Shown here one piece after another: positions 8,436 through 40,135 of a stretch of DNA of 41,660 nucleotides (within the stretch, counting starts at the first letter, position 1; each line of letters begins with the position of its first letter). Source of the DNA: a virus. The position numbers and the translations under genes are program-made. The stretch lies in IMG/VR virus record IMGVR_UViG_3300046698_000320, positions 1 to 41,660 of that record, one strand, 5' to 3'. The notes under the pieces were generated by a model, which saw only the letters and a list, made by a program, of their open reading frames with translations, was not told where the DNA came from and made no database searches.

Positions 8436-8583
8436 TTGTTAATTTTTTACCAATCTTATAAAGTAATTGTGCAAGACTTCGACCAGATCCTAATTCAACA
8501 TTTTCCATTCCTTGCTTTGATTCTGCTACTGTCCATTGGTTATCTTTCTTGTATATTGTTAAAACGATATTTGTATAATCCAT
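8383..8583 (-). CDS. Unknown small protein
   Basis: 66 residues starting MDYTNIVLTIYKKDNQWTVA. I chose the ATG at 8583, a few bases after the preceding glycosyltransferase stop, over the upstream ATG at 8679 that would overlap that gene by 92 bp. Begins with a beta hairpin and ends in an acidic tail (ESTEEVIATSEQA). Overlaps the start of the next gene by 53 bp. Function unknown. Confidence 0.5.
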   Translation of the reverse strand: MDYTNIVLTIYKKDNQWTVAESKQGMENVELGSGRSLAQLLYKIGKKLTNEKTESTEEVIATSEQA

Positions 8584-8587
8584 TTTG

Positions 8588-9921: not shown

Positions 9922-9922
9922 T

Positions 9923-10567: not shown

Positions 10568-11093
10568 AAAAGTATATATCAAGTCCATTATCTTCTAAAT
10601 ATAAATCTTTGAATGGCTTTTTACTATTGATTGCATCTATGAATTCTCCAAACTTTCCTTTGCACATATTGTTATAGTAATCAGGACTTGTTCCCCATAA
10701 GTTTCCATCTCCTGTAGTTCTTTTTGTTCCATGTTCTGGTCTAGTTGATCCTGCTGCTGAGATTGCCATGAGTCCTCCATCTTTAAGCATGGCATACATA
10801 TTCATTAAAGATTGAAACCAGAACTCATCGTGTTCAAGCATTTCACCAGAAACTATAGTATCAACAAGATTCAAGCCATTCTCTGCTCTATTTAATTTAT
10901 CTGCTGCTGAAACAATGTCCACATTTGGTCCTGCATGAATATCAATACCCTTGTAGTCTGAATACTCAAACAGATCTTTCAGTGTTCCATTAATATCAAG
11001 GGAACCAAAATCAAGAGCAGAAACACTCTTGAAGTTCTCTGGGAACTTTGCTTTCACCTTTTCAAAAAATTGTCTTTGGGCTGGATGTGCCAT
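10554..11093 (-). CDS. SAM-dependent methyltransferase (class I fold)
   Basis: 179 residues. Motif I SALDFGSLDINGTLKDLF is followed by YKGIDIHAGPNVDIV (motif II, acidic end of beta 2) and VSGEMLEHDEFWFQSLMNMY (motif IV region), then LKDGGLMAISAAGS. This is the layout of small-molecule or sugar methyltransferases found in glycan clusters rather than DNA methyltransferases. First gene of the sugar cassette after the terminase. Confidence 0.75.
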   Translation of the reverse strand: MAHPAQRQFFEKVKAKFPENFKSVSALDFGSLDINGTLKDLFEYSDYKGIDIHAGPNVDIVSAADKLNRAENGLNLVDTIVSGEMLEHDEFWFQSLMNMYAMLKDGGLMAISAAGSTRPEHGTKRTTGDGNLWGTSPDYYNNMCKGKFGEFIDAINSKKPFKDLYLEDNGLDIYFYAIK

Positions 11094-15343: not shown

Positions 15344-16093
15344 TTATTGTTGGTTATTTAATCTCTCATTGATAATTTTAATATATTCAGGTTCTTTTTC
15401 TATCAAGATAAAGTTTCTATTTAGATTTCTGGCTGCCACTCCTGTGGTTCCTGAACCTGCACAGTTATCTAAAACTAAATCGCCTTCGTTGGTGTAGGTC
15501 TTGATTAGATATTCAAATAGGGCTACTGGTTTTTGGGTGGGGTGATAAACTTCTTCTTTTTCTCTGTGATTTGGAAAATACTGTATTGAAACTGGATATT
15601 TCTTTGACGGGTCATAATCATCTGCGTATTTTATTGCCCCTTTTGGAGTTACCGCCCCGTCTGTTCGGTTTATTTTTTCTTTTTCTTTTCGCTGGTCTCT
15701 TATTTTTCCTATCACATCAGTTTTTTGTGGATTATAATTTCTTCCACCAAATACTAAAATGTTTTCATGTATTTTCAATGGTTGTTTTTTTGCTAGCATT
15801 ATATTGCTTGCTTTATTTTTATTCCAAATCCATTCATACTTAAACATCTTCACATTACTCATCACCAACGCACTGGTAAAAGGTTGTGAGGCAGTTAAAA
15901 CTATCGCACCATTGTCTTTTATTATTCTTTTATATTGTTCCCACAATGGCTCAAAGGGAATTATGGTGTCCCAATGGCACGAAGTCGTTCCATAAGGTAA
16001 ATCACATAAAATCATATCAATACTGTTATCAGGTATCTCTTTCATTACTTCTAAACAGTCGCCTTGTATGATTTGATTTTCTTTCATATCCAT
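15344..16093 (-). CDS. DNA (adenine-N6 or cytosine-N4) methyltransferase
   Basis: 249 residues, beta-class order. The catalytic DLPYGT motif IV (residues 31-36, a DPPY variant) comes first, the target-recognition region follows, and the SAM-binding motif (DNCAGSGTTGVAARNL, near 209-224) is near the C-terminus with FILIEKEPEY. An HPTQKPVALFEYLI segment precedes it, as in many phage M.N6/N4 enzymes. It would methylate phage DNA against host restriction. No cognate nuclease nearby, so a solitary enzyme. The start could also be the Met two codons later. Confidence 0.9.
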   Translation of the reverse strand: MDMKENQIIQGDCLEVMKEIPDNSIDMILCDLPYGTTSCHWDTIIPFEPLWEQYKRIIKDNGAIVLTASQPFTSALVMSNVKMFKYEWIWNKNKASNIMLAKKQPLKIHENILVFGGRNYNPQKTDVIGKIRDQRKEKEKINRTDGAVTPKGAIKYADDYDPSKKYPVSIQYFPNHREKEEVYHPTQKPVALFEYLIKTYTNEGDLVLDNCAGSGTTGVAARNLNRNFILIEKEPEYIKIINERLNNQQ

Positions 16094-16467: not shown

Positions 16468-17225
16468 TTATTCTGTAATTTTTGCTTTGTAAGTCTTATT
16501 TTCGATAGTTACTGATACTTCTTGCCCAACTAAACTTTCAACTTCTTTTTTCTTTTCTTCTCAATAGGAGTAATTTCATAATCTCCAAGTACATATTGAT
16601 TTTTCCAATAAGTAGTTCCTGTTTTATCTGTAATATCTTTTATTTTTCCTGAATCATCTCCACCGATAAATCTACCTTTAGTATATGAAAATTTACCACA
16701 GACCCAAGCATTACCAGAGACATAAGCATCACCAGAGACTTGAGCATCACCATAGACCTGAGCATTACCACAGACCTGAGCATCACCAGAGACATAAGCA
16801 TCACCACAGACCCAAGCATCACCATAGACCTGAGCATCACCACAGACCCAAGCATTACCAGAGACATAAGCATCACCAGAGACTTGAGCATCACCAGAGA
16901 CCTGAGCATTACCACAGACCTGAGCATTACCACAGACCCAAGCATCACCAGAGACATAAGCATCACCAGAGACTTGAGCATCACCAGAGACCTGAGCATC
17001 ACCATAGACCCAAGCATTACCAGAGACTTGAGCATCACCAGAGACCTGAGCATCACCATAGACCCAAGCATTACCAGAGACCTGAGACAAATTTTCTTCT
17101 TTTTCTATATAACCTCCAAATTCTCCTTTTACAATACTACCAAAACTCTTTTCAGCTTTTATTTGAAACAATGTTTTTCCGAACAATTCTATTTTTTTAT
17201 TTGTTAATACGTATTTCTTTTGCAT
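16468..17225 (-). CDS. Hexapeptide-repeat beta-helix protein with -1 frameshift near its end
   Basis: The zero frame (stop at 16530) encodes 231 residues. The N-terminus (YVLTNKKIELFGKTLFQIKA, then GEFGGYIEKEENLSQ) resembles YdcK-type phage and prophage proteins. It is followed by about 22 six-residue repeats of type [VW]-x-G-[DN]-A-[QWY] that should form a left-handed beta helix. After the repeats come KDITDKTGTTYWKNQYVLG and EKKRKKKLKV. At 16551-16545 the mRNA has the in-frame heptamer A AAA AAG. A -1 shift there replaces LKV by EVESLVGQEVSVTIENKTYK plus AKITE, ending at 16468. That tail closely matches the C-terminus of the adjacent gene (LSLSGKEVTVTLDGKSYTAI), so the longer product is likely genuine or ancestral. 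A lost base in the A run is the alternative. Confidence 0.75.
16545..16551 (-). other. Slippery heptamer A AAA AAG
   Basis: In the zero frame the codons are AGA AAA AAG, so the heptamer has the phase needed for -1 slippage by paired tRNAs, identical to the dnaX site. The -1 frame then stays open for 25 codons into a conserved C-terminal module. I do not see a convincing downstream stem-loop, nor a Shine-Dalgarno element at the usual 10-base distance upstream. Confidence 0.45.
16697..17092 (-). repeat. 18-bp tandem repeat (22 units) inside beta-helix gene
   Basis: Twenty-two contiguous 18-base units without a length break, each varying at a few fixed positions (read on the plus strand as ca[ct/ga]aga-c-[at/cc/tt/ct]-[a/g]agcat-[c/t]ac). 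Each unit encodes one six-residue coil. Because the unit length is a multiple of three and stop-free, several other frames on both strands stay open through it; these are by-products. The last unit is diverged. Confidence 0.9.
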
Positions 17226-24175: not shown

Positions 24176-24979
24176 ATGAATAACAATATGATCTTTAAAG
24201 ACATGTTTACAAAAGTCATGATGTATGGAAATAAAGTAGCACCTCGTGGATTAGAAATCATTGAGATAGAGAACTTCTCATATACTTTACCGTCGTATGT
24301 TAGATTCATGAATTATCCAGATAGAAAGCTCAATCTTAATTATATTAAGAAAGAATTTCTTTGGTACCTTCATGGAAATAAATTTGATACATCGATTGCA
24401 GAGCATGCATCAATATGGAAAAACTTAATCAACGATGATGGTTCGATTAATTCAAACTATGGCCAATATGTTTTTGGCGAAATAAAACAGTTTGAATATG
24501 TATATCGAACATTAGCAAATGATAAAGATTCAAGACGTGCAAGCATTATGATTCTTAGTAAAGATCATTTGTTATCTGATACTAAAGATATACCTTGCAC
24601 ATATGCAATCAATTTCAGAATTAGAAATAATACTCTGAATATGACTGTACATATGAGATCGCAAGATGCAATCTTTGGTGCCGGAAACGATATACCTGCT
24701 TTTAGTTTTATACATGAAATGATGTATAATTACTTAAAGTTAGTATATCCTGATATTCAATATGGCACTTATCATCATGTTGTTGATTCATTCCATATTT
24801 ACAAGAAACATTATCAAATGGTTGACAATATTTTGAAAGGGCAGGAGAATATGCCTATTGAATGCCCTAAAATATCTGGACCCGAAGAAGTTCATAATTT
24901 ATTGAATTTAGAATTTGATAATGTTCCAGAAAAATATCAATTCACCCGCTGGCTCTTACATCAGCAATTGTTCAACTAA
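24176..24979 (+). CDS. Thymidylate-synthase fold nucleotide hydroxymethylase, probable dCMP hydroxymethylase
   Basis: 267 residues, full-length ThyA fold. Seen: E60 in KKEFLWYLHG (general Glu), R120-R121 in DSRRASIMIL (phosphate-binding Arg pair), catalytic C141 in DIPCTYAINF, R161-S162-x-D164 (RSQDAIFG), and F206-H207-x-Y209 (FHIYKKH). The residue aligned with Asn177 of E. coli ThyA, which recognises the uracil ring, is D172 in GAGNDIPAFSF. Asp at this site is the hallmark of dCMP hydroxymethylases such as T4 gp42 (established knowledge). So conversion of dCMP to 5-hydroxymethyl-dCMP with methylene-tetrahydrofolate is favoured over dTMP synthesis. The enzyme would feed the dNMP kinase and glucosyltransferase encoded 8 kb downstream. 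Enclosed by terminators with strong ribosome-binding sites. Confidence 0.8.
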   Translation: MNNNMIFKDMFTKVMMYGNKVAPRGLEIIEIENFSYTLPSYVRFMNYPDRKLNLNYIKKEFLWYLHGNKFDTSIAEHASIWKNLINDDGSINSNYGQYVFGEIKQFEYVYRTLANDKDSRRASIMILSKDHLLSDTKDIPCTYAINFRIRNNTLNMTVHMRSQDAIFGAGNDIPAFSFIHEMMYNYLKLVYPDIQYGTYHHVVDSFHIYKKHYQMVDNILKGQENMPIECPKISGPEEVHNLLNLEFDNVPEKYQFTRWLLHQQLFN

Positions 24980-24994
24980 CTCGTTGGAGGTAGT

Positions 24995-25183
24995 ATGACC
25001 AAAGCGAATTTAGGATATTATGTTTGAATGGCTGAGGCACGTAAATTACGTTTCCCAGACATGGAAATGGAAATGTGCATCTTCATGACTCTTGAAAATG
25101 CAATGGTTAATCCATTGCCATCAACAATTCAAGAGGTTGTCGATGAAATTGAAAGGAGGAAACAATTAGTTGCTGCAAAGTAG
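24995..25183 (+). CDS. Small protein with in-frame TGA after ten codons
   Basis: The only good ribosome-binding site (TTGGAGG) points to the ATG at 24995, which opens MTKANLGYYV and then meets TGA. The next codon is ATG (25028) and the same frame continues MAEARKLRFPDMEMEMCIFM to a TAG 51 codons later. Possibilities: a 10-residue leader that couples translation to the 51-residue protein, TGA read-through (TGA read as Trp gives YYVWMAEARK), or a point mutation. Acidic/Met-rich start and a C-terminal helix (QEVVDEIERRKQLVAAK). Unknown function; partner of the hydroxymethylase by position. Confidence 0.5.
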
Positions 25184-25191
25184 CTAACACT

Positions 25192-25218
25192 GAGAAGGTC
25201 ACAAGCCTTCTCCATTTT
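25192..25218 (+). terminator. Intrinsic terminator of the hydroxymethylase cassette
   Basis: GAGAAGG (25192-25198) pairs with CCTTCTC (25206-25212) around TCACAAG, followed by CATTTTAT. It closes a cassette that opened with the double hairpin upstream. Confidence 0.75.
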
Positions 25219-25240
25219 ATCATTTAACATATATTTATAT

Positions 25241-25426
25241 ATGCCATTATTTAATAAAAAATTAAAAAATATTGAAGATATAGTCTTTAAAGAAGATCCG
25301 CTGAATGAATATGAAGAAGTTATTTATGATAAAGATACTAATCAATTCATAGGTACAGGAAAAATGATCAAAAGAAAACCTGAGGTCGATCCAGATAGTT
25401 ATAAAGATAATATAGAAGATCGATGA
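25241..25426 (+). CDS. Unknown small acidic protein
   Basis: 61 residues, highly charged (DPLNEYEEVIYDKDTNQFIG), probably a small beta hairpin with flexible ends. One base before the next ATG. Not recognised. Confidence 0.5.
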   Translation: MPLFNKKLKNIEDIVFKEDPLNEYEEVIYDKDTNQFIGTGKMIKRKPEVDPDSYKDNIEDR

Positions 25427-25427
25427 T

Positions 25428-25613
25428 ATGCAAAAACATAATTATTATAAAGTAGCCCCTGAGGTTACTGCATTTATAAAGACTCTTGCATATAAAGATG
25501 ATCTAAATAAACCAGATAATTACAAAATGCAATTAATAGAAGTTCAAAGAAAAAAATCAGAAAAAATAGACATTCAATATTTAGTATCATTAATAAAAGC
25601 AATACTGCCATAA
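25428..25613 (+). CDS. Unknown small protein
   Basis: 61 residues (MQKHNYYKVAPEVTAFIKTL onward), helical, basic centre. Its stop overlaps the next start by one base (TAATG), so translation is coupled. Not recognised. Confidence 0.5.
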   Translation: MQKHNYYKVAPEVTAFIKTLAYKDDLNKPDNYKMQLIEVQRKKSEKIDIQYLVSLIKAILP

Positions 25614-25816
25614 TGAAGCCAGTTAATATAACAAAAGAAAAGTTTGAAGCATTTAAACAAATTCGAGATATGGGTTTGATTAAAGCAAACAACTTCAATG
25701 ATATGCAAATTGTTATTCGAAACATTTGCAAAGTTAGTTTAACAAAAGATGAATGTTTCGATATTTATCGGAAATATTCAGAATATTTAAAAATATATAA
25801 TTTAAAATCGCGATGA
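25613..25816 (+). CDS. Unknown small helical protein
   Basis: 67 residues, helical (KEKFEAFKQIRDMGLIKANN, LTKDECFDIYRKYSEYLKIY). Overlaps the next gene by 4 bp (ATGA). No family recognised. Confidence 0.5.
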   Translation: MKPVNITKEKFEAFKQIRDMGLIKANNFNDMQIVIRNICKVSLTKDECFDIYRKYSEYLKIYNLKSR

Positions 25817-26220
25817 GAGAAGCAAAATTTAATTTCGTTCCTTTTTTGCAAGTCAATGCATTAAATGCGAAAGTAATAGATAAGACAGTAACAGTCAATT
25901 TAAAAACAGGTTGTGTTAGTTTTTCAAAACCATATATTATGGAAAAAGGTCTTGATGGAACTATGATATTGTTTTTTGTTGACGTTGCTAAAAAAGCATT
26001 AGGGTGGAGAAAGATTGAAGGCGAGGGATTAGCAGGTATGAAGGGTGCAAAGAAAGTAACGATATATAAAACAACGACAGGAACAACATGTCAAATAGCA
26101 TGTAAACAAATATTGAAAGCATTTGGATTTAAAGAATTAAAATCTTTTAAAAAAATGCCGATTGAAACTTATAAAAGCAATCCGCTAGATGGCATTGTGG
26201 ATTATGTAATACTTAAATAA
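25813..26220 (+). CDS. Unknown conserved-looking protein
   Basis: 135 residues. Alternating strands (FNFVPFLQVNALNAKVIDKT, TVNLKTGCVSFSKPYIM) then a Gly/Lys-rich segment and KKVTIYKTTTGTTCQIACKQ. Mixed alpha/beta, no catalytic motif. Precedes the immunity-like peptide gene by one base. Confidence 0.55.
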   Translation: MREAKFNFVPFLQVNALNAKVIDKTVTVNLKTGCVSFSKPYIMEKGLDGTMILFFVDVAKKALGWRKIEGEGLAGMKGAKKVTIYKTTTGTTCQIACKQILKAFGFKELKSFKKMPIETYKSNPLDGIVDYVILK

Positions 26221-26221
26221 T

Positions 26222-26389
26222 ATGGGATTCTTAATATTTATTATTGTTGGTTTTATTTATTTTATACCAACATTGATTGCATATAATCATGAACATAAAA
26301 ATAGAGAAGGTATTTTAATTTTAAATATCTTTTGCGGTTGGACATTTCTTGGCTGGGTTGGTGCATTAATATGGGCAAACTTAAAATAA
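26222..26389 (+). CDS. Superinfection immunity (Imm-like) membrane protein
   Basis: 55 residues, MGFLIFIIVGFIYFIPTLIA followed by YNHEHKNREGILILN and IFCGWTFLGWVGALIWANLK. Two hydrophobic helices with a short charged HKN turn and the G-W-T-x-x-G-W-x-x-A-x-x-W-A signature define the superinfection immunity family, to which T4 Imm belongs. Inserted in the inner membrane, Imm blocks DNA entry of a second phage of the same kind. One base lies between it and each neighbour. Confidence 0.85.
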   Translation: MGFLIFIIVGFIYFIPTLIAYNHEHKNREGILILNIFCGWTFLGWVGALIWANLK

Positions 26390-26390
26390 T

Positions 26391-27092
26391 ATGAAAAAAG
26401 AACCAAAAGAAAAGAAAGTACCAAAACTTAAAAAGGAGAAAAAAGAAAAGATAGAAAATAAATTAAATGGATTAGAACAATCATTTAAAAATCCTGCAGG
26501 AACTCTAATCATACTTAAAGACATATTAACAGAAACTGATTGGTGGATTCTTACAAAAGGAAAGCAGCAGTTAACAATGGTTACTCATGATGGTGTAAAA
26601 AAGATAGCGACAGAAGCAGGTATCCTTAGTGATGTTCAATGGACACATATTACTGTTGGTACAAATGATAATCAAATGACAAATGTTTTTCAAGCAAGAA
26701 TAACAGACTCAGCAGGAAGAAGTACAACAGGCATTGGTGAAAGTAGTAGAAATAATTTAGGTACCCGTGGTCGCGGGAATCCAGTTAACATGGCTCAAAA
26801 AAGAGCATATGATCGTGCAGTTTTTGATCATTTAGGAATTCATGGATTACTTGGAGAAGATGAATTGCCAGATGAAGAAGAGGTCACAACACTTATGGAA
26901 AGAATAAAAACAGATGAAGAAAAGAAAGCAATTGCACCATTATGTAATAAAATATGGGCAGCAAAAACAAAAGAAGAATTGATGACAATTAGAGAGAAAG
27001 TTAAATTGGTCGAAGCAAGTTATAGTCCTGAGCAATTAAATGCTATTAAAGGATTATGGAAAAAGCAATTAGCAATATTAGAAAAATTTTAA
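26391..27092 (+). CDS. Candidate recombination protein (single-strand annealing type)
   Basis: 233 residues. Very basic Lys/Glu N-terminus, then a core in which VFQARITDSAGRSTTGIGES is followed by NPVNMAQKRAYDRAVFDHLG. This strand-then-conserved-helix pattern (M-A-x-K-R-A-x-D-R-A) is common in phage single-strand annealing or ssDNA-binding proteins of the Rad52-like sort. C-terminal helical tail (ELMTIREKVKLVEA). The setting supports the guess: a PD-(D/E)XK nuclease and an SSB-like gene follow. The exact family is not certain. Confidence 0.5.
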   Translation: MKKEPKEKKVPKLKKEKKEKIENKLNGLEQSFKNPAGTLIILKDILTETDWWILTKGKQQLTMVTHDGVKKIATEAGILSDVQWTHITVGTNDNQMTNVFQARITDSAGRSTTGIGESSRNNLGTRGRGNPVNMAQKRAYDRAVFDHLGIHGLLGEDELPDEEEVTTLMERIKTDEEKKAIAPLCNKIWAAKTKEELMTIREKVKLVEASYSPEQLNAIKGLWKKQLAILEKF

Positions 27093-27093
27093 G

Positions 27094-27306
27094 ATGCTAC
27101 CACTTACTAAGAAACAGTATGAAACTCTTGAATATTTGAAAGCATATTTTACAGAACATGGATATATGCCGACAAGAAAAGAAATTTCATTGAATTTTAA
27201 GATAGCAACTGGCGGTGCTGTTTTTAGTAGAATACAAATGTTAGTTAAAAAAGGATACATAGAAATAACAGGGGGCCCTAGGGGATATAAAATTATAAAT
27301 CAATGA
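27094..27306 (+). CDS. LexA-type winged-helix DNA-binding protein
   Basis: 70 residues that correspond to the LexA N-terminal domain alone: LTKKQYETLEYLKAYFTEHG, YMPTRKEIS, an AVFSRIQMLVKKGYIEITGG recognition helix and wing. No autoprotease domain. Likely a phage repressor or activator; palindromic ATTGTACAAT sites at 16.12 and 22.87 kb are candidate targets (inference). Overlaps the nuclease gene by 4 bp. Confidence 0.8.
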   Translation: MLPLTKKQYETLEYLKAYFTEHGYMPTRKEISLNFKIATGGAVFSRIQMLVKKGYIEITGGPRGYKIINQ

Positions 27307-28130
27307 GCATTAAATTAGAAAAGATTTCACCATCTTCTTTAATGCAATATGAAAAATGTCCAAGACTATTTTATTATTCGACATTATTAGGATTAAAACT
27401 TCCACAGTCGATGATACATTTAGAATTTGGTACAGGAATTCATGCTGCAATAGATGAGATATATAAAGAAAGAAATTCTGATGGATCTTGGAAACATGAA
27501 GATACTCCAGATAAAGCAAAAGCAATATTTGCAAATCATTTTAGAACAAAGTATTTAGAGACACTAGATAGTATTGAAAGAAATACAATGTTAGAAAAAT
27601 ATAATGAAATGGTTGATGATGGATTAAATATTATTCAAGAATTCTGGGATACAAAAGAAAAGTTCTTAACAGTCGATGGAATAGATATGGTTGATTTTGA
27701 ATTAATTCGAAAGCATATCTTATTTAATCCAGAGACAAAAGAGCCATGGCCAATACCATTAAGTTATAGAATTGATGGTATTGCTAAAAATGATATTGTT
27801 ATAGAATACAAAACATCAAGCAAACCATATGATATTTTTGAAACTAGAGCATCGCTTCAAGCACTATCATATGCACTCGGTAGATACTGTGAGACAGGAA
27901 AAATACCTCTAATTTATTATATTGTTATGATAAAAAAGAGAAAGAAAGATAAAATTCAAATGCTTAGAATTCAATATCAAATATCAGACTTGATGTTGTT
28001 TGATGCAAAGGTGCGGTCGATGCTTAAATCAATTCATGCAGGTGAATTTGATAAACCACTAAAAGGACATGAGTTCTTTTGTGATTGTAAAAAGTATGAA
28101 GAAATGTTAGATTACAAAGATTATATATAA
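27303..28130 (+). CDS. PD-(D/E)XK family nuclease (RecB/Cas4-like)
   Basis: 275 residues. ISPSSLMQYEKCPRLFYYST is the start typical of RecB-like nucleases. Catalytic motifs: RIDGIAKNDIVIEYKTSSK (D, then E-x-K) and RASLQALSYALG (Q-x-x-x-Y). His before the helix (GTGIHAAIDEIY) is also conserved. The N-terminal Cys and the C-terminal FFCDCKKYEEML pair recall an iron-sulfur site, but only three Cys are evident. Probably a 5'-3' exonuclease in phage recombination with the annealing-type and SSB-like neighbours. Confidence 0.88.
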   Translation: MSIKLEKISPSSLMQYEKCPRLFYYSTLLGLKLPQSMIHLEFGTGIHAAIDEIYKERNSDGSWKHEDTPDKAKAIFANHFRTKYLETLDSIERNTMLEKYNEMVDDGLNIIQEFWDTKEKFLTVDGIDMVDFELIRKHILFNPETKEPWPIPLSYRIDGIAKNDIVIEYKTSSKPYDIFETRASLQALSYALGRYCETGKIPLIYYIVMIKKRKKDKIQMLRIQYQISDLMLFDAKVRSMLKSIHAGEFDKPLKGHEFFCDCKKYEEMLDYKDYI

Positions 28131-28140
28131 AAACAAAAAA

Positions 28141-28533
28141 ATGAAATATACAATAGCAGGAGTAAAAAGAACAACACTTCCAAAAAAGGCAGGAGGAACT
28201 TGGGTCAAAACAGAAGTAAAGCTAAAAGAAACTGGAGATCAAATATATGAACTAAATTTTAGTAAGTATATTAAAGATGGTTTAGTGCAAGGTACAATAT
28301 TAAATGGTTACCTTAGTGAAAAAAGCTGGACAGGTCGAAATGGTGTAAGTATTACAAAAGTATTTAATGCAATAGATGCAGAATACTTGTATGATATGAT
28401 ACTTAAAATGAATCCAGCCATTGAAGGTAGTATGTCAGTTGCAAAAGCACCTGTAGAAACTGCTTCTGTAAAGACAGATGTATGGGAAGAAACAGGACCA
28501 GCAGCAGAAGAGACAGCAACAGTAGAATGGTAA
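28141..28533 (+). CDS. Possible single-stranded DNA-binding protein
   Basis: 130 residues. Residues 1-95 have the strand-rich look of an OB fold (IYELNFSKYIKDGLVQGTIL, then WTGRNGVSITKVFNAIDAEY). The C-terminal 30 residues are disordered and acidic (WEETGPAAEETATVEW), like the protein-interaction tail of SSB-type proteins. Position after the nuclease is right for SSB. No aromatic signature that would make it certain. Confidence 0.45.
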   Translation: MKYTIAGVKRTTLPKKAGGTWVKTEVKLKETGDQIYELNFSKYIKDGLVQGTILNGYLSEKSWTGRNGVSITKVFNAIDAEYLYDMILKMNPAIEGSMSVAKAPVETASVKTDVWEETGPAAEETATVEW

Positions 28534-28537
28534 TTAT

Positions 28538-28900
28538 ATGAACATCGATGATATCTATGCTACAATAGATAAAATTATTGCAGCACAAAAAATAGCTCGA
28601 AGGAATAATGATTTTTTAACTTTGCTTACAAATGGTGAAGCATTGTTAGAATATCTTCCAAAAGTCATAGAATATTCTGTAGATCAAGAATCTCAATATA
28701 GAAAGTATGAAGCTAGATTAGCAAATGAAATGACTGATAATAAAAGAAATAGCAGTTCATATTGTGAAACTCAAGCCAAAGCAATAGATGAATATAAAAA
28801 TTGGCAGCGTTCAAAACTCTTTATTGAATTGATGTACGAGATGGTTCAAGTTTCTAAAAAACTTGCAAGTAGTGTAAATACTGAATTCAATGCTTCATAA
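28538..28900 (+). CDS. Unknown helical protein
   Basis: 120 residues, all helical (DDIYATIDKIIAAQKIARRN, RSKLFIELMYEMVQVSKKLA). The last residues KKLASSVNTEFNAS are nearly repeated at the end of the next gene (KKLAGSVNDEFNSSK), suggesting the next gene arrived by insertion with duplication of this tail. Confidence 0.55.
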   Translation: MNIDDIYATIDKIIAAQKIARRNNDFLTLLTNGEALLEYLPKVIEYSVDQESQYRKYEARLANEMTDNKRNSSSYCETQAKAIDEYKNWQRSKLFIELMYEMVQVSKKLASSVNTEFNAS

Positions 28901-29123
28901 TAACTTTTCATTACATAACAAATGTAAAGATTGTCATATTAAACATTTAAAAAGATATGAATGGACATTAATTAAGAATAAAAAATATCTTAAAAAGAAA
29001 GAAAATTTCATTTCATTATGTCCACGATGTCATAAAATATATGATAATACTATGCCGATTAATAGATTTATTAGAAAGAAGTTAGCAGGATCAGTAAATG
29101 ATGAATTTAATAGCAGTAAATAA
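28890..29123 (+). CDS. Small HNH-like protein, probably degenerate
   Basis: 77 residues. CKDCHIKHLKRYEWTLIKNK, then FISLCPRCHKIYD, has the Cys pairs, the EW and the C-x-x-C-H-x-x-Y-D of small phage HNH proteins, but the first catalytic His-containing strand is not canonical. Overlaps the preceding gene by 11 bp and carries a copy of its C-terminal tail. Confidence 0.55.
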   Translation: MLHNNFSLHNKCKDCHIKHLKRYEWTLIKNKKYLKKKENFISLCPRCHKIYDNTMPINRFIRKKLAGSVNDEFNSSK

Positions 29124-29128
29124 AACAT

Positions 29129-29299
29129 ATGAAATTTAATATATCAAAAAATCAAGAAAGAATTATAAAAGCTTATACAAAAATAGCAGCAAAAGGTCAG
29201 ATGCCAACAAGTGCTGCTGTCGCTAAAATTGCAAAAGTGTCAAAAGAAACAGCAAGAGTAAATGTCATTAAGTTGAAATCAGCAAGACTTCTTAAATAA
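29129..29299 (+). CDS. Small winged-helix-type DNA-binding protein
   Basis: 56 residues (MKFNISKNQERIIKAYTKIA onward). Helix, GQMPTSAAVAKIAKVSKETA turn and recognition helix, then RVNVIKLKSARLLK. Reads as a compact helix-turn-helix. Probably a regulator. Missed easily because of its size. Confidence 0.6.
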   Translation: MKFNISKNQERIIKAYTKIAAKGQMPTSAAVAKIAKVSKETARVNVIKLKSARLLK

Positions 29300-29307
29300 T
29301 ATTCAAT

Positions 29308-29973
29308 ATGACAGTATACAAAAAACATGCAGAGAATGAATATTGGTATCCAAGAATTCAATCTGTAATCAATGATTGTATTTTTATTATCAAAACACAA
29401 TTTGATAATTCAAAATATGATAAGTTTATAACTCAATATAGGTATCATGGGCAAAGACATACTGGTTATATTTTGCGTACTGTCGTATTAGAGTATTTAC
29501 AGACAGGCATCTGTACATCAGAAATAAGACAAAATTTTGCAGGTGGTAAACCATTTATTAGAGTTCCAATAATAAAACTAGAAACAATGGATAACGAAGA
29601 TATTGATGTAACATTTCCTATTGTGAAACATTTAAACTTTAGAGAAATATACGATAGACAAATAGAATTTGAAAAGAATTTTTTTAATCCATCTGGTTTA
29701 ACATTAGAACAACAAGTTAGATGGATCAAAGAATTTTGTTTAAGTGCTCATGATGAATTATCAGAAGTTATGAAAGAAGTGCCATGGAAGGAATTTCATA
29801 AATATGATAAGTTATATAACATGGATAAAGCAAAAGAAGAAGCAATTGATGTATTAAAATATTCATTAAATATTTGTATTGCTTTAGGAATGACTGCAGA
29901 CGATGTTATAAATATGTTCAATAAAAAATCAGATTTAGTAGAGCAAAGATTGAATCATGCAAAAGAAAAATAG
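29308..29973 (+). CDS. All-alpha dUTPase/dCTPase-like NTP pyrophosphatase
   Basis: 221 residues. The C-terminal part is the MazG/dimeric-dUTPase fold: E150-x2-E153 in SAHDELSEVMKEVPW and E178-x2-D181 in AKEEAIDVLKYSLNICIALG form the Mg-binding E-x2-E...E-x2-D motif, followed by MTADDVINMFNKKSDLVEQR typical of phage dUTPase. T4 gp56, the dCTP/dUTP pyrophosphatase that removes dCTP in favour of hydroxymethyl-dCTP, belongs to the same superfamily. Residues 1-120 are a separate basic segment of unknown role. Lies directly before the DNA polymerase. Confidence 0.75.
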   Translation: MTVYKKHAENEYWYPRIQSVINDCIFIIKTQFDNSKYDKFITQYRYHGQRHTGYILRTVVLEYLQTGICTSEIRQNFAGGKPFIRVPIIKLETMDNEDIDVTFPIVKHLNFREIYDRQIEFEKNFFNPSGLTLEQQVRWIKEFCLSAHDELSEVMKEVPWKEFHKYDKLYNMDKAKEEAIDVLKYSLNICIALGMTADDVINMFNKKSDLVEQRLNHAKEK

Positions 29974-30002
29974 TCGATTTATTAATTATTAATTAAACAA
30001 AT

Positions 30003-32363
30003 ATGAAAATACTTACAGCATATGACACACGCGATGGAGTTTGTTTAATTATAAAAGAAAATAGAATTAGGAAAGAAAAATACATTATATATAGTGATTG
30101 GTATTTTTATATACTTCTTAGTGATTTTGATAAATCAAAAGAAATCTTAGAAAAATATCAAAAAGGTGGTCTTATTAAAAAAATACTCCCTGGAAAAAAA
30201 TATGTAAGAGTTATGTCTAGATATGATCGTTATGATGAACCATCAATTGATTCTCTTAGATATGATTTGGCTCAAATTAAAACAGAAGTATTTGAATTTG
30301 ATCTTAATAAAACAAAAAGATATATCATAGATACAGAACTACAAATTGAAGATGATCTAAATATTTTATATTTTGATATTGAAACAGATGATAGTCATGA
30401 TGGAATAGAAATAGGTAGAGACAGAATAATATCGTTTGCAGCATGTGATAATGAAAAGACATATTTTAAAACAGGAGATGAAAAAAGTGTATTACAGTCT
30501 TTTGTTAACTTAATTAAAAAATATGATCTTATTACGGGTTGGAATTCTGAGCAGTTTGATTTACCTTATATACAACAACGATGTGCAAAACATAATATTA
30601 AATATAATTGGAAGTCTATATTGCATGTAGATATGTATCAAAGATGTTTTAAAATATTTGGATATGAAGCAAATATTATTGGATTAAAGAATTTTAGTCT
30701 TAATGAAATAGCAAAAGCATTTCTAAATGAAACAAAAACAGAATTATCAGGGATTAAGATTCATAAACTTGAAAAAGAAAATCCTGAATTATTAAAAAAA
30801 TATAATATTCAAGATGCTGTTTTACTTCAAAAGCTTGATAAAAAATTAAGCATTATTCCATTAATGATACAGGAATGTGTATGGACAGGATCATTTCTAA
30901 ATAAATTCTATATCGGCGAATTGTTAGATAACTATATTCTAAGAGAAGCAAAGAAAGCAGGAATGATCTTGCAATCAAGACCATCAGAAGAAGAACATGC
31001 AATCAATGAAGAAATAGATATCGTCGGAGGATATGTATCTGAACCACAAACAGGCTTTTATGATAATGTGCATGTATGCGACTTTAAAAGTCTATATCCT
31101 TCAATTATTGTTGGATGGAATATTGGGATTGACACATTAGACAACGAATTATCTATTAAAGGAGAAAAAGCAATGATAGAATTCTTGAACGGAAGAAAGA
31201 TAGAAGTTCTAACATATATAGAATGGTTCGATTTCTTAATAAAAGAAAAAGCAAGGTTAGACCCAAACAATAAATATGTTCAAACAGCAAATAATGCTTT
31301 CTTTAGAAAGGAGACTAGAAGTTTTATTGGAGGACTTGTTCAACAACTGTTAGATAATCGTGCTGAATATAAGAAGAAATTAAAGATCCTGCAGTTTGAT
31401 ACACCTGAATATAATAATACCTATGCTGCTGAAAGAGTAGTTAAAGAGATGGCAAATTCAATGTTTGGTATAACATGCGATAGACGTTCTAGATACTTTA
31501 ATAAATTTGTATCTGAAGGCATTACATATACTGGTCAATTGCTTAATAAAATGAGTAGTCATGTCGCTAAATCATTTGGATCAACACCAATTTATGGCGA
31601 TACTGATTCCATCTTTTTAACGAATGCTCCAGATATGATTCAACATATTCTTGATATCAATGTAGGATTAAAAGATATATTAGATAACACTTTTGGATTA
31701 TTTAAAAATATTGTTTCTCTTGAGTTTGAAAAGACATTTACTAAATTCATACTGATGAAGAAAAAGAAATATACTGGATTGTTATCAATGAAAGATGGAA
31801 AGAATATAGCTAAAATATTTTCTAGGGGGACAGAAGATGCAAAAAAGACTTCTATTAAATTAAGTAAGCAAACATATTTAGAATTAGTTAATATCATCTT
31901 TACAAACAACTCAGATCAAAATGTTATTGAATATATTGAAAAACTTAGAGATCATATATATAATGATGACATTGATTTAAAAGACATCTTATTAATTACA
32001 AGAGTATCTAAGCCAATTGCATCATATAAATCATTAACATTAGCTGGAAGACTTGCAGATAGATTAATTAAAGAAGGCAAACTTCTTCCAATTGTTGAAA
32101 GTGAAAAGAAAGTAGGAACAAGATTAGAGTATATCGTTACTAAAATCAATGATAAGAATGAAGGAATATTATTAGAAGAAGTAAATAATAATTGGAACAG
32201 AGATTATTATTGGGAAGTACAAATTTTTGCTCCACTAAAAAGAGTATTAGATTGTACCCACCCTCATATTGATTGGTCAAAATATGATATACAAAAAATT
32301 AAAAAGGTAAGAATTAAAAAAAATGATACAACAAAAATTGATACTATTCGAAGGAGCAGATAA
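30003..32363 (+). CDS. Family B DNA polymerase
   Basis: 786 residues with both activities. 3'-5' exonuclease: Exo I FDIETDD (residues 124-130), Exo II WNSEQFDLPYIQQR, Exo III YNIQDAVLLQKL. Polymerase: motif A DFKSLYPSII (D360), motif B VVKEMANSMFGITCD, motif C YGDTDS (D533), and the MKKKKYTGLL template/primer motif. No intein or intron. It replicates the phage genome. Its 3' end overlaps the kinase gene by 41 bp. If the DNA is modified, this enzyme must accept hydroxymethyl-dCTP. Confidence 0.96.
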   Translation: MKILTAYDTRDGVCLIIKENRIRKEKYIIYSDWYFYILLSDFDKSKEILEKYQKGGLIKKILPGKKYVRVMSRYDRYDEPSIDSLRYDLAQIKTEVFEFDLNKTKRYIIDTELQIEDDLNILYFDIETDDSHDGIEIGRDRIISFAACDNEKTYFKTGDEKSVLQSFVNLIKKYDLITGWNSEQFDLPYIQQRCAKHNIKYNWKSILHVDMYQRCFKIFGYEANIIGLKNFSLNEIAKAFLNETKTELSGIKIHKLEKENPELLKKYNIQDAVLLQKLDKKLSIIPLMIQECVWTGSFLNKFYIGELLDNYILREAKKAGMILQSRPSEEEHAINEEIDIVGGYVSEPQTGFYDNVHVCDFKSLYPSIIVGWNIGIDTLDNELSIKGEKAMIEFLNGRKIEVLTYIEWFDFLIKEKARLDPNNKYVQTANNAFFRKETRSFIGGLVQQLLDNRAEYKKKLKILQFDTPEYNNTYAAERVVKEMANSMFGITCDRRSRYFNKFVSEGITYTGQLLNKMSSHVAKSFGSTPIYGDTDSIFLTNAPDMIQHILDINVGLKDILDNTFGLFKNIVSLEFEKTFTKFILMKKKKYTGLLSMKDGKNIAKIFSRGTEDAKKTSIKLSKQTYLELVNIIFTNNSDQNVIEYIEKLRDHIYNDDIDLKDILLITRVSKPIASYKSLTLAGRLADRLIKEGKLLPIVESEKKVGTRLEYIVTKINDKNEGILLEEVNNNWNRDYYWEVQIFAPLKRVLDCTHPHIDWSKYDIQKIKKVRIKKNDTTKIDTIRRSR

Positions 32364-32838
32364 AAGCGGAAAATCAACAATAGCGCAAGCATTATCGAAG
32401 GAACTGAATATACCAATATTCAAAGTACAGAGAAACAAATATTGGTGGGACCCAGCAATTAACCTTCTTTATTTAACTGAAGGTATAACACAATTCATAG
32501 AACAGACAGGAGTATCAGTAATCCTTGATAGATGGATTGGATCAGATTATATGTATAGTAAACTTTTTGATCGAGAGATTAGTTATAATAAAATATTTGA
32601 TATTGATTTTAGATTGTCAAAATTGAATACATTACTTATCATTTGTTACAAACAACCATATGCGTTTATTCATGATATAGAAGATGAACAATTCATTAAT
32701 GAAAAACAATATGAAAAGATGACAGCATTATATAGAGAATATGAAAGAGAATCTTTAATAGATAATGTTCTATTTCTAGATACATCAGATGAAAATTTAG
32801 AAGAACAACTTAACAAAATAATAGCAAAAATAAAATGA
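32323..32838 (+). CDS. Thymidylate kinase-like dNMP kinase
   Basis: 171 residues. P-loop FEGADKSGKSTIAQAL (11-19), then VSVILDRWIGSDYMYSKLF with the D-R-x motif, and LIICYKQPYAFIHD. This is the thymidylate kinase/deoxynucleoside kinase fold, slightly short. In a hydroxymethylcytosine phage a dNMP kinase (T4 gp1 role) must phosphorylate hydroxymethyl-dCMP; this is the only candidate here (inference). Starts inside the polymerase gene, so translation is coupled. Confidence 0.8.
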   Translation: MIQQKLILFEGADKSGKSTIAQALSKELNIPIFKVQRNKYWWDPAINLLYLTEGITQFIEQTGVSVILDRWIGSDYMYSKLFDREISYNKIFDIDFRLSKLNTLLIICYKQPYAFIHDIEDEQFINEKQYEKMTALYREYERESLIDNVLFLDTSDENLEEQLNKIIAKIK

Positions 32839-33008
32839 GATATTTAATTGCAAGTATAAATTTAATAGTAGACATCTTTGTAATAATTATAGGATGCTAC
32901 ATTATACAAAAATCATTAATATTGGGTCTAGTTAATATAATATTAGGAATAATCAATTTAGCATTATTCAAAATTAATTTTAAAAAATATGGAAATAGGA
33001 ATTTATAA
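32835..33008 (+). CDS. Small membrane protein
   Basis: 57 residues (MRYLIASINLIVDIFVIIIG onward), two hydrophobic helices and a basic C-terminus (KINFKKYGNRNL). Overlaps the kinase stop by 4 bp and the glucosyltransferase start by 20 bp, so it sits exactly between them. Unknown function. Confidence 0.6.
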   Translation: MRYLIASINLIVDIFVIIIGCYIIQKSLILGLVNIILGIINLALFKINFKKYGNRNL

Positions 33009-33942
33009 ACCTGGGAAAAAAATCTTCTTCTATAAAAATGAAGAAGATCATGCCTCATGGTCAATAGAAATTACAAGCATTATTAAAATGTTTGCAGAGC
33101 ATGGAGATAATGTATATATACTTTCTGACTCTGATTATATTCAAAACTCAATTCCAAATGTACAGCAAGCAGTTACTCCTGATATAAAATTAGATAAGGT
33201 TATTGTATATTGTGGAGTATTTAATAAAGATATTAATCTGTTTGCTACACTTAAAAAGACATATGAGTGTCCTATAGAAATTATAGTGACTGACTTAGCT
33301 ATTACACCTGAAAATATTTCAGCATATGATACTATATATCTTGAGACAAATAATTCATATGCATATTTTAAAGATCATACTTCTTTAGATATGGTTGAAA
33401 CTACTTATTTGCCAATTGGTAAAAATATATTGATTGGGTTTGATCGCAATTCAATTGACATTGACAAAGTTATAGCAAACAAATCTATTCAATATTATTT
33501 TGGTGGTACAGAAAAAAATAGATTAAATGATTATATAGAATATGTTTATAGACCTGAATGTATTAGTTATGGCAAATCAGCATTCTTTAGTTATAAAAAT
33601 TATATACCATATCATGAGCATTTACAGATGATGGATAGAGCAAAATATAGTATTGTTATCGGAGATGAAAAATACAACAAGATAGGTATGGTTACTCCAA
33701 GATATTATGAGTGTATTATTCATGGTGTTATAGCATTTGTGGATTCTAAATTTGATCCTGATGAATTATATATTAAGCATGATGATTTTAGAAGAGTTAA
33801 GTCTTTTAAAGATCTATATACTAAAATGAAAATCTTAGACGAAAATCAACAACTATATAGATCCATTTTAGCAAGACAATATTCCGAAATATCTGAAGAT
33901 GATTGTAAAGGTGAATCAATTTATACAATATTGTCAAGATGA
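32989..33942 (+). CDS. T4 BGT-like DNA beta-glucosyltransferase
   Basis: 317 residues, GT-B fold, close in length to T4 BGT (351). From memory of the T4 protein, these align: FTDIRLPFSQ with VTDLAITPEN (D102 at catalytic D100); YGGSFRSGQR with FGGTEKNRLN (R178 at R195); LIIGDKNYND with IVIGDEKYNK; FITLRVWETM with MVTPRYYECI (R238 and E241 at R269 and E272, UDP-sugar ligands); MLIDEEFDTK with AFVDSKFDPD. The region of T4 E163 is G144 here. The family transfers glucose from UDP-glucose to 5-hydroxymethylcytosine in DNA. In this phage it fits the hydroxymethylase and kinase genes. The alternative is another GT-B glycosyltransferase of the same fold. Confidence 0.78.
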   Translation: MEIGIYKPGKKIFFYKNEEDHASWSIEITSIIKMFAEHGDNVYILSDSDYIQNSIPNVQQAVTPDIKLDKVIVYCGVFNKDINLFATLKKTYECPIEIIVTDLAITPENISAYDTIYLETNNSYAYFKDHTSLDMVETTYLPIGKNILIGFDRNSIDIDKVIANKSIQYYFGGTEKNRLNDYIEYVYRPECISYGKSAFFSYKNYIPYHEHLQMMDRAKYSIVIGDEKYNKIGMVTPRYYECIIHGVIAFVDSKFDPDELYIKHDDFRRVKSFKDLYTKMKILDENQQLYRSILARQYSEISEDDCKGESIYTILSR

Positions 33943-36724: not shown

Positions 36725-39700
36725 TCACAGATTACCAGTCTCCATCGCTACTGTATAACCTGTACTTGTGCTTCCTCCACCGACACTTATATTTTGATTG
36801 TATTCTCTTAGATTACCATTTACACCTGATGAATTTGGACCATTATTAATAATTGTAATTGAATCAAATATTTCAGCTCCAACATTTAATTGTATTACAG
36901 GTTGACTTTGGTTATTAAATATATTTGCATTTATAAGTTCGTATTGAGCTCTAGTCAAAGCATCTGCATAGGTAAGTATTTTATAATCTTGGTATATAGA
37001 TTCCCTTATTTTCCCAGTGGAAGAAATTGATGATTGATCTTGTGCTATAGCCATAACACCATTTCCATAAACTGTAACTTCATTTACATATTCTTTGTCT
37101 GAATTATCTGTCACTTGTTGTTGTATTTCATCTTTGTATGTATAGGTTGATGGATCTGATGATTGTAAAAGTATCATATTCATTTGTCCCATCAAATCTG
37201 AATAATTCCAAGATCTCATAATTCCCAAAGCAGATGTAATATCTGAAGACATATCATCGCCAGAATTTATTGAGAAATTATTAACTTGATTATAAAGCAA
37301 AGAAGAAGTCAATCCTCTTATGTGCAAAGTTGAATTTGCACTTGCTCTAAAACCAAAATAACCAGATTGATATGTTTGAGTTGTATTATTATCATTCCAA
37401 GCAACTACCAATTTATTATCAATAAAACCTAAAATGTATTGGTCACTCATTACTAATTTATAAGTGTGCCATTGTGTTAAATCAATACCCAAATTATTAA
37501 AAGTGCCTGAACTCATATAATCTACATCAGAAGAACTTGCTAATAAATATTCAGCAGCTTCCCAATTAATATCAATTCTTGAAGATGTAATTAAATTGTC
37601 TCCAGAAACTTGACTGTTCCAAACATAACTACTCAAAATATCTGAAGTGTTTTGATTTCTAAATAACAAATCAAAACCATAAGCAGAATTTGAAACTGTT
37701 GGAACTATTTTTGCTTGAAAAACAATTTCTCCATTTTTGGAATTTTGATCTGTTTTAACTACATAATTAGTCGGAGCTAATATCAATTCTCTGTTTTCTG
37801 AAGTAAAAGTGCCAGTATATTGGTCTGTTGTAAAAATATTGTCAGCAAAGTCATTTTCTACTTCATAATCAAAAATGGATGCTTGTGTTGCAACTTTTTC
37901 TGTAAGTTCATATATATTTTGAGAAAAATTGTATTGAAATAATTTAAAAGTAGAAAACTTACCAGCACAATTTTCAGTACCAAAGCCAATAGTCCCTGAT
38001 GTAAAATTTGCATAAACTCCATTAAACCAATCACTAAAATCATGATATCCTAGATAGATTGGACTACTTGATGGATCGTAAGCTGCTATATCATTTCCAG
38101 AAGAAGTGGTTGATGAAATTAAAAAACTAAATAAAAATCCACTTTTTTTAATAATAATTGGACAAGGAGCAACTCTTCCTCCAGAAGGGAATGGAAAATT
38201 TCCAGAGCCAACAGTGTTAACACTGCCTCCATAACTAACTTGAATATTATAATTCAATGTTGAACTTGAGCCGTTGCCAATTATTTGTAGTCTAATCCAA
38301 TTTTTTGAATCTTGATAAAATGGGTAAAATATTTGATATATTGAAGAATTTGAATTAGATCCTGGCAAAACAGAAAGTATGTTAAAAACCCAGTTTGGTT
38401 GAGTATTTAATTGACTTGAATACAATAACAAATACTCTATGTCTGTATCATATCCTCCAGGAGATGTTGGAGTTGCAGATTGTGCAGTTGCCCATGTATT
38501 TTGAAATGTTGGATATAATATGTTGTCTGGATTTTGTATCCAGGTTCCAACAGATTGATTCCAATCGGAAACTGTAGTTCCATCAAAGTTATCAGATTCA
38601 TAATCACAACCGATATAATTCATTGTAAATTTACTTACAGTGGTTGAAAGTTGTTTGTTATAATCTCTGCCTGTTATAGTTAAATCATTGGCAGTATTTG
38701 TAACATTTTGTTCAATGTCGTCTATATAAAAAATATTTCTTGGTACTGTTTCTGGAAAACCATTCGCATTATAATAACCCAAATCTAAAAGAATTTTTCT
38801 ATCTTTTGCTATTGCTTGATAACCCACTGATGTAGGAGAAGTGCCAAACCATTGTCCATTCTGATTTCCTATTACAATTGAAATTGAACTTGGATTACCA
38901 CCCTGTTCTTGCGTCGATACTGAAATAATATCACTAGAAACATCTGCAATTATATTATTTTTAATAAATTGCCACACCTGTCCATTACCTGTAATATAGT
39001 AATAATCATTTTGAAAAACAAAAGAGTTGGCAGCTGTATCAGTAAAAGTATATCCATCTTGTAAAGTTATCGGTAAGGGGTATGAAAAATTAATCAAATC
39101 TTTTGATTTTGAAATATAATAATTGGTGGTAGTTGTTACAGCAGAAACTTGAGTTGTTATTGTGTTAACAATTTCTGCATTATAAACCAACCAATAAAAT
39201 TCTCCATCATATCTGATCGTGGGGAAGGTAAAAGTATTTTGATTAAAAGTTGAAGAAGAAAGTGATTCCAAAATATTTCTTGTGCTAGTCCAAATATTAT
39301 TAGAAATTCCATCTTTAACACTTAATGTTGTTGAATATATTCCAAAATTTGTAGAACTTTCAAAATATTGATGATGCCCAGAAAAAACTACAAAATAATA
39401 ATTTCCATCATAAGTTGTATCAATTGAATTTAAAATCCAATCAGAGGTGTCAACTTGATTGGTCCAATTATGTGAAACCCAACTTCCCGTCGTATAATTC
39501 CAAACAGTAATAATAGAAGTTGTATTGGCAAAAAAAGTGCTTTGAGTAACACCATTTATATCTTGATATGATTTTCCTGCAGCAATATAAATATATCCAG
39601 TAGCTGAAATAATTTCTGAACTCCAAGTTATTCCACCATCATTAGAATAACAATGTCTGACAAAATTAGTTACATTTATAAATAAATTATAAACATCAAC

Positions 39701-40135
39701 TCTATAAATTCCATTTATAAATTCTGAAACTGAAATGGAAGTATTTAGTGGAGTTACTCCTGAATTGTTATTTAATATAACAGTTGGCGATATTGACCAT
39801 GCAATTGAAGCATCTGGTATTTTCCAAAATCCAAGATTTCCAGAAGCGTCAATTCCTGCTGCTAAAATATTTCCATCTGGTGCAGTAATAGAAGCTCCAT
39901 TTATTGGATAAACTCCACCTGCTATGATATTGTTTGGTAAAACTTTATCATCAACAATATGACATTGAAAATAAGGTCTTACATTTGGTTGCTGTTGTGC
40001 AGACAACAAAGTTGGAGTTAGCCATTTATATCCAGATGTTTTTAAAGTACAAGAAATAGCAGATGGGTTTGTTTGAGTTGTTATCCCATTTATTCCGTTT
40101 AGTGTTGTGCTATTTAATGTATTGCTATTAATCAT
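36725..40135 (-). CDS. Large tail/baseplate protein with BNR and LamG-like domains
   Basis: 1136 residues. Residues about 60-400 carry a sialidase-like propeller: the Asp-box SNDGGITW is at 164-171. Residues about 400-500 look like a baseplate hub segment (ISVSTQEQGGNPSSISIVIG, DDIEQNVTNTANDLTITGRD). Residues about 510-720 and 760-930 are two beta-sandwich, concanavalin/LamG-like domains (SDNFDGTTVSDWNQ, GEIVFQAKIVPTVSNSAYGF, WHTYKLVMSDQYILGFIDNK). The end carries the hub-like DEIQQQVTDNSDKEYVNEVT. It probably binds or degrades host glycans as part of the tail tip. No full catalytic Arg/Glu set was seen, so binding is more likely than cleavage. Confidence 0.7.
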   Translation of the reverse strand: MINSNTLNSTTLNGINGITTQTNPSAISCTLKTSGYKWLTPTLLSAQQQPNVRPYFQCHIVDDKVLPNNIIAGGVYPINGASITAPDGNILAAGIDASGNLGFWKIPDASIAWSISPTVILNNNSGVTPLNTSISVSEFINGIYRVDVYNLFINVTNFVRHCYSNDGGITWSSEIISATGYIYIAAGKSYQDINGVTQSTFFANTTSIITVWNYTTGSWVSHNWTNQVDTSDWILNSIDTTYDGNYYFVVFSGHHQYFESSTNFGIYSTTLSVKDGISNNIWTSTRNILESLSSSTFNQNTFTFPTIRYDGEFYWLVYNAEIVNTITTQVSAVTTTTNYYISKSKDLINFSYPLPITLQDGYTFTDTAANSFVFQNDYYYITGNGQVWQFIKNNIIADVSSDIISVSTQEQGGNPSSISIVIGNQNGQWFGTSPTSVGYQAIAKDRKILLDLGYYNANGFPETVPRNIFYIDDIEQNVTNTANDLTITGRDYNKQLSTTVSKFTMNYIGCDYESDNFDGTTVSDWNQSVGTWIQNPDNILYPTFQNTWATAQSATPTSPGGYDTDIEYLLLYSSQLNTQPNWVFNILSVLPGSNSNSSIYQIFYPFYQDSKNWIRLQIIGNGSSSTLNYNIQVSYGGSVNTVGSGNFPFPSGGRVAPCPIIIKKSGFLFSFLISSTTSSGNDIAAYDPSSSPIYLGYHDFSDWFNGVYANFTSGTIGFGTENCAGKFSTFKLFQYNFSQNIYELTEKVATQASIFDYEVENDFADNIFTTDQYTGTFTSENRELILAPTNYVVKTDQNSKNGEIVFQAKIVPTVSNSAYGFDLLFRNQNTSDILSSYVWNSQVSGDNLITSSRIDINWEAAEYLLASSSDVDYMSSGTFNNLGIDLTQWHTYKLVMSDQYILGFIDNKLVVAWNDNNTTQTYQSGYFGFRASANSTLHIRGLTSSLLYNQVNNFSINSGDDMSSDITSALGIMRSWNYSDLMGQMNMILLQSSDPSTYTYKDEIQQQVTDNSDKEYVNEVTVYGNGVMAIAQDQSSISSTGKIRESIYQDYKILTYADALTRAQYELINANIFNNQSQPVIQLNVGAEIFDSITIINNGPNSSGVNGNLREYNQNISVGGGSTSTGYTVAMETGNL

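Follow-up and report, generated by a model that had tools for sequence, protein, structure and literature searches.

Does a phage that is unlike T4 in its layout encode a T4-like route to glycosylated 5-hydroxymethylcytosine (hmC) in its DNA? The question is raised by the IMG/VR virus record IMGVR_UViG_3300046698_000320, which was analysed in its entirety (41,660 b, hereafter the window). A sequence-only reading had proposed that four genes in one rightward block specify a T4-style hmC and DNA glucosylation pathway in a non-T4 phage. All four were found to be open frames on the plus strand of that block, which extends from about 23.2 to 34.5 kb and holds the recombination and replication genes; a family B DNA polymerase gene sits among them. 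GC content is 31% in the whole window and 29% in the block. The features of the block are as follows.

24176-24979, plus strand: dCMP 5-hydroxymethylase-like ThyA-fold enzyme, 267 aa (PF00303, E 1.2e-22)
24596-24598, plus strand: codon of the aligned catalytic Cys141 of the ThyA-fold enzyme
24689-24691, plus strand: codon of Asp172 of the ThyA-fold enzyme, in the motif GNDIPAF
26391-27092, plus strand: conserved protein, no family match
27303-28130, plus strand: PD-(D/E)XK exonuclease (PF12705, E 8e-17)
28141-28533, plus strand: small possible SSB
29308-29973, plus strand: MazG-type (all-alpha) dCTPase/dUTPase-like protein, 221 aa (PHROG_173, E 3e-9)
30003-32363, plus strand: family B DNA polymerase with 3'-5' exonuclease (PF00136, E 2.6e-50)
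32323-32838, plus strand: P-loop (deoxy)nucleotide kinase, 171 aa (PHROG_761 'thymidylate kinase', E 1e-14; PF01712, E 1e-5)
32989-33942, plus strand: beta-glucosyltransferase (BGT)-like glycosyltransferase, 317 aa (PHROG_7922 'beta-glucosyltransferase', E 4e-10)
33292-33294, plus strand: codon of Asp102 of the glycosyltransferase (T4 Asp100)
33709-33711, plus strand: codon of Glu241 of the glycosyltransferase (T4 Glu272)

The structural genes run leftward, and the arrangement is not T4-like, as the sequence-only reading had also held. The terminase has about 25% identity to terminases of phages with cultured hosts; with the terminase of L002, an uncultivated phage, it shares 50%. The leftward features are these.

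1-2292, leftward: repetitive spike
8588-9376, minus strand: GT2 glycosyltransferase, beside the terminase gene
9923-10588, minus strand: second glycosyltransferase-like protein, recognized by eye
10554-11093, minus strand: methyltransferase, beside the terminase gene
11366-13111, leftward: terminase
13933-14958, minus strand: full-length GDP-mannose 4,6-dehydratase, among structural genes (PF16363, E 1e-119)
15344-16093, minus strand: N6/N4 DNA methyltransferase (PF01555, E 5e-34; type II methyltransferase models up to E 9e-94)
36725-40135, leftward: 1,136-aa protein
leftward: portal (PF04860)

The ThyA-fold enzyme had been said to carry Asp at the dCMP-selecting position, and the alignment agrees: Asp172 falls opposite Asn177 of thymidylate synthase and Asp179 of T4 gp42. 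Of the distinct IMG/VR relatives pooled from two scans (an identical twin contig entering only as one), 32 of 32 have Asp at this position. So do nine relatives encoded by cultured phages as well as gp42 of T4 and 44RR, and the catalytic Cys is conserved along with it in the relatives. Three controls have Asn there, namely the second, ordinary thymidylate synthase of Acinetobacter phage MD-2021a and the enzymes of the hmU phage SP8 and of Vibrio phage K469. When the PDB was searched, the top match was the CMP hydroxymethylase MilA (E 1.5e-22), then T4 dCMP hydroxymethylase (E 2e-19); thymidylate synthases appeared only from E 2e-9. The C-terminal lid of thymidylate synthases is needed for the methylating step; it is present in the ordinary MD-2021a thyA_1 control ('...HPSIKAEVAV') and absent from the window enzyme and the Asp group. 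In view of residue 177, the missing lid and the PDB ranking, we reject an ordinary thymidylate synthase role.

In a phylogenetic tree, the window enzyme lies within a group of 19 members, the others all from uncultivated phages. The neighbouring group is that of Xp15 and the Acinetobacter phages, a placement not firmly resolved because the tree support is 86/89. A two-pattern scan of 84,980 bacterial and archaeal genomes found no Asp-type relatives, and the nearest cultured relatives are 40-43% identical. In MD-2021a and Xp15, the Asp-type enzyme lies two genes from a NodU-type carbamoyltransferase; in Effie and HHU4 an unannotated gene of equal length occupies the carbamoyltransferase position. 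In the MetaGPA study (eLife 2021, PMC8670742), thymidylate-synthase homologues came out at the top of the families whose presence in phage contigs goes with modified cytosine. The study linked this association to Asp177, and an hmC carbamoyltransferase was validated there too. It also found that an Asn177Asp thymidylate synthase produces 5-methyl-dCMP, so Asp177 alone proves the choice of dCMP only. The carbamoyltransferase pairing and the MetaGPA association together therefore leave the hydroxymethylation step well supported for the close kin, with the window enzyme a putative hydroxymethylase.

The gene at 29308-29973 had been read as all-alpha and dUTPase/dCTPase-like, which is borne out. 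T4 gp56 belongs to the same PHROG_173 (E 6e-39), the pairwise similarity between the two proteins being short. PF08761 is matched at E 2e-4, just below the cut-off, and a profile that includes T4 gp56 matches solved dUTPases. Only part of the claim of a dNMP kinase stands: the protein does belong to a kinase family, but T4 gp1 falls in PHROG_139, so the window kinase is outside the gp1 family. PHROG_761 kinases recur in the vicinity of Asp-type enzymes: Enterococcus phage 9183 has one as the next gene, Lactobacillus phage ATCCB has one at a distance of about 5 kb, and the uncultivated L017, L028 and L046 have one as well. It is thus plausible that the window kinase carries out, as a different type of enzyme, the step for which T4 uses gp1, which would make it a candidate hydroxymethyl-dCMP kinase. 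The polymerase encoded directly 3' to the Asp-type enzyme in L002 is 52% identical to the window polymerase.

For the glycosyltransferase, an unbiased profile was made from just two proteins, that of the window and its relative in L017, and so contains no BGT. Against the PDB, this profile matched T4 BGT (E 2.8e-5) and a second BGT entry (E 1.5e-4), with all else at E of at least 1.8. Profile-profile comparison with seven T4-like BGTs gave an end-to-end match (E 6e-15). The C-terminal half, on the sugar-nucleotide side, matched the BGT profile by itself at E 9e-15. The N-terminal half by itself gave P 5e-4 and a probability of 31%; none of 40 column shuffles exceeded 14%, and none of six other glycosyltransferases exceeded 5%. 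The earlier description of this protein as a BGT-like glucosyltransferase is upheld to the extent that T4 BGT, and nothing else, was matched among solved structures.

The roles of the BGT active-site residues are known from BGT structures generally. Residues Glu22, Asp100, Gly188, Arg195, Asp258, Tyr261, Arg269 and Glu272 of T4 BGT are identical in the window enzyme in three alignment modes; one other alignment of the two proteins places Glu22 differently. Both family members, from the window and from L017, keep Asp100 and Glu22 of the N-terminal half, and T4 Arg191 is Lys in the window and Arg in L017. Identity to T4 BGT is about 22%, and the stretch that follows Asp100 in T4, close to the DNA-binding side, is shorter by some ten residues. 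The BGT N-terminal domain PF09198 gave no match at E 1 (window) or 0.1 (L017), with T4 BGT (9e-98) and S16 BGT (3e-62) as controls. The general family Glyco_trans_1_2 matches the window enzyme at E 8e-6, and T4 BGT matches it too. AlphaFold2 models made with few homologues (2 and 8 sequences) had low pLDDT (36 and 45), and the better of these low-confidence models retrieved GT4 enzymes and dehydroquinases with Foldseek. The conserved BGT residues and the unmatched PF09198 together point to a BGT-like working with a diverged acceptor half. By its residues the window enzyme appears to be a divergent BGT relative, probably outside the BGT family proper, with an acceptor-side (N-terminal) half that seems weakly BGT-like. 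Two DNA-motif scans of IMG/VR for further close glycosyltransferases returned L017 and L018 again, plus a chance match to a tail-lysin gene; within these scans the enzyme is rare, with close resemblance in L017 and L018 only.

L017 and L018 are contigs of 58 and 76 kb from two metagenome records and are identical over the 20.9 kb compared. They carry, in the same order as the window, the 26391-27092-like protein, exonuclease, MazG, Asp-type enzyme, polymerase B, kinase and glycosyltransferase. Cassette proteins are about 26-55% identical to those of the window, and the glycosyltransferase 37% over its length. In contrast to the window, the L017/L018 cassette has two insertions, one an additional exonuclease gene and the other a methyltransferase-like gene. 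The recombination genes (26391-28533) hold their position upstream of the cassette, and in both L017 and L028 the order of the 26391-27092 protein and the exonuclease is unchanged. The trio of MazG, Asp-type enzyme and polymerase stays together in L002 and L028. The family matches lie far beyond chance, and an independent contig repeats the gene order of the block. Within 10 kb of the ThyA-fold gene, most relatives lack a glycosyltransferase of the window's family.

We consider that the block probably specifies a T4-like pathway for glycosylated hmC DNA. The MazG-type enzyme would hydrolyse dCTP and dUTP, its presumed substrates, keeping unmodified C out and supplying dCMP. With methylene-tetrahydrofolate, the ThyA-fold enzyme would then convert dCMP to 5-hydroxymethyl-dCMP, Asp172 selecting cytosine and Cys141 attacking the ring. 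The phage kinase, presumably acting on this product, and then host kinases would raise it to the triphosphate, which the phage polymerase would incorporate in place of C. After synthesis, the BGT-like enzyme would put a sugar on the hydroxyl, most likely glucose from host UDP-glucose, and the sugar would be expected to block restriction enzymes and probably some CRISPR nucleases as well. For the first, second, fourth and fifth of these steps the sequence shows the protein family and the key residues, and the gene order is conserved. The two comparisons by which sequence could speak against the proposed pathway, residue 177 and the nearest solved structures, both came out in its favour. The carbamoyltransferase beside the nearest cultured Asp-type relatives counts for this reading, as does the pairing of an Asp-type enzyme with an adjoining true BGT in ATCCB. 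Counting against it are the weak N-terminal half, the lack of a PF09198 match and the shorter stretch after Asp100, together with a kinase that is not of the gp1 type.

The same pathway might deliver a sugar other than glucose, such as a pentose, galactofuranose or a deoxysugar, to give a different hmC glycoside. The 22% identity to T4 BGT and the change of Arg191 to Lys are compatible with this, and UDP-galactopyranose mutase or sugar-epimerase genes lie near related loci, with a GDP-mannose dehydratase at 13933-14958 in the window itself. Two reports describe other sugars on phage hmC, arabinose for RB69 (PMC6024577) and a pentose in Thanatos (PMC12838424). However, the rightward block is without a sugar-nucleotide gene and the UDP-glucose-binding residues of the BGT donor side are mostly retained, and on balance we find a different sugar possible but doubtful.

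Less probable still is that hmC is made but left bare or given another group, the glycosyltransferase not being DNA-modifying. The weak similarity of the acceptor-side half to BGT would fit, as would the lack of this glycosyltransferase family within 10 kb in most ThyA-fold relatives; both family members nevertheless keep Asp100 and Glu22 in that half, and the operon-like order is the same in two unrelated-looking phages, so we think this quite unlikely. It is very unlikely, in our judgement, that 5-methyl-dCMP is what the ThyA-fold enzyme produces, as happens in phage Xp12, and that the glycosyltransferase has some other target, for instance a surface glycan of host or virion, or a protein. 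The Asn177Asp product (PMC8670742) allows the former, since Asp proves dCMP choice only, and the Glyco_trans_1_2 match (E 8e-6) the latter. Yet the closest solved relatives are hydroxymethylases, the methylating enzyme's C-terminal lid is missing, T4 BGT likewise matches Glyco_trans_1_2, the PDB offers no other matching glycosyltransferase, and the cassette is conserved.

The T4-like pathway shares with T4 itself the Asp at the dCMP-selecting position, a dCTPase-like gene in the PHROG of gp56, and the BGT active-site residues. It differs in layout, in the kinase PHROG, in the N-terminal domain unmatched by PF09198 and in sequence: identity to the T4 counterparts is about 22-27% for the ThyA-fold enzyme and the glycosyltransferase, which agrees with the earlier remark that the sequences are far from T4. 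An alpha-glucosyltransferase gene was not seen in the window. BGT has been reported in the Enterococcus siphophages VPE25 and VFW, together with bisulfite-resistant cytosine (mBio 2016, PMC4999554). These, Lactobacillus phage ATCCB and Enterococcus phage nattely are all, like the window phage, non-T4-like with a BGT or BGT-like gene, and hmC glycosylation outside T4-like phages is thus already known. In ATCCB, which also has the PHROG_761 kinase, the BGT next to the Asp-type enzyme shares about 31% identity with T4 BGT and 30% with that of nattely. BGTs of the ATCCB and nattely type match T4's over the full length at about 30% identity; the window enzyme is more divergent, and its match to the ATCCB BGT spans 70 columns only. 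A further close system is that of 5-carbamoyloxymethylcytosine from the MetaGPA study, to be taken together with Xp15 and the Acinetobacter phages. It is there that the closest cultured Asp-type enzymes (40-43%) are found, with a carbamoyltransferase where the window phage carries a glycosyltransferase; Asp177 enzymes in modified metagenomic contigs were reported in 2021 (MetaGPA, PMC8670742). The kind of system is therefore already known, and the window appears to hold a more divergent variant of it, with an unusually divergent sugar-adding enzyme. Phage DNA with glycosylated hmC is protected from restriction enzymes and from some of the CRISPR type, and hmC-glycosylating enzymes serve in hmC mapping; a shorter BGT relative of 22% identity whose acceptor side is altered may prove to have a new specificity.

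Sugar genes of several kinds were found near Asp-type enzymes elsewhere: GT-B-like enzymes in L004, L028, L030 and L050 (some of them weak matches or seen by eye), GT2 enzymes in L029, L034 and L036, NAD-dependent sugar epimerases in L026 and L027, and a weak match to UDP-galactopyranose mutase in L028. This suggests, as a lead and not a result, that the Asp-type hydroxymethylases of uncultivated phages accompany many different sugar genes. Our tentative proposal, which we hold with less than even confidence, is that the window phage is one of a large group of uncultivated phages that share an Asp-type hydroxymethylase and differ in their hmC sugars. The glycosyltransferases of such a group would be unrelated or far diverged, and among them would be a BGT-like lineage whose acceptor half is new and whose sugar is possibly not glucose. 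If this is true, such phages are a reservoir of undescribed cytosine glycosides.

A UDP-galactopyranose mutase gene, putative in L028 (16938-19415, the weak match) and annotated in ATCCB (L151:5162-7392), adjoins a glycosyltransferase gene near the Asp-type hydroxymethylase; the pair gives a hint of galactofuranosyl-hmC DNA. Directly 5' to the Asp-type hydroxymethylase, L029 (7651-9770), L034 (8871-9944) and L036 (7839-8918), on contigs of up to 360 kb, encode GT2 glycosyltransferases with TPR repeats, possibly another class of hmC glycosyltransferase. Polymerase B of L028 (10797-15871) is apparently split by an intein, the second ORF showing a typical intein C-terminus, '...VHN', before 'TDSIF'.

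The GDP-mannose dehydratase of the window could be the source of a deoxysugar for the glycosyltransferases at 7491-10588. Its genome matches are mixed; the best, at 70% identity, lies in an uncultured bin of 7.1 Mb, with several Patescibacteria among those that follow. The genes at 8588-11093 are separate from the hmC block and perhaps serve virion decoration. For the methyltransferase at 15344-16093, a restriction partner was not seen in the window, so a second DNA modification is likely. The spike-like protein (1-2292, minus strand) has Ser/Thr-rich 'ASST' repeats and head-type 'NTTG..N' repeats. In the phylum of a Patescibacteria bin its repeats matched 19 of 287 genomes, and in that of a Roseivirga bin 26 of 297; being present in Patescibacteria and Bacteroidota-type genome sets alike, they are uninformative on the host, and a Patescibacteria host was dropped as a candidate. 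The gene at 16530-17225 (minus strand) consists of near-perfect short repeats (GDAQVSGNAWVYGDA...) resembling a repetitive beta-helix.
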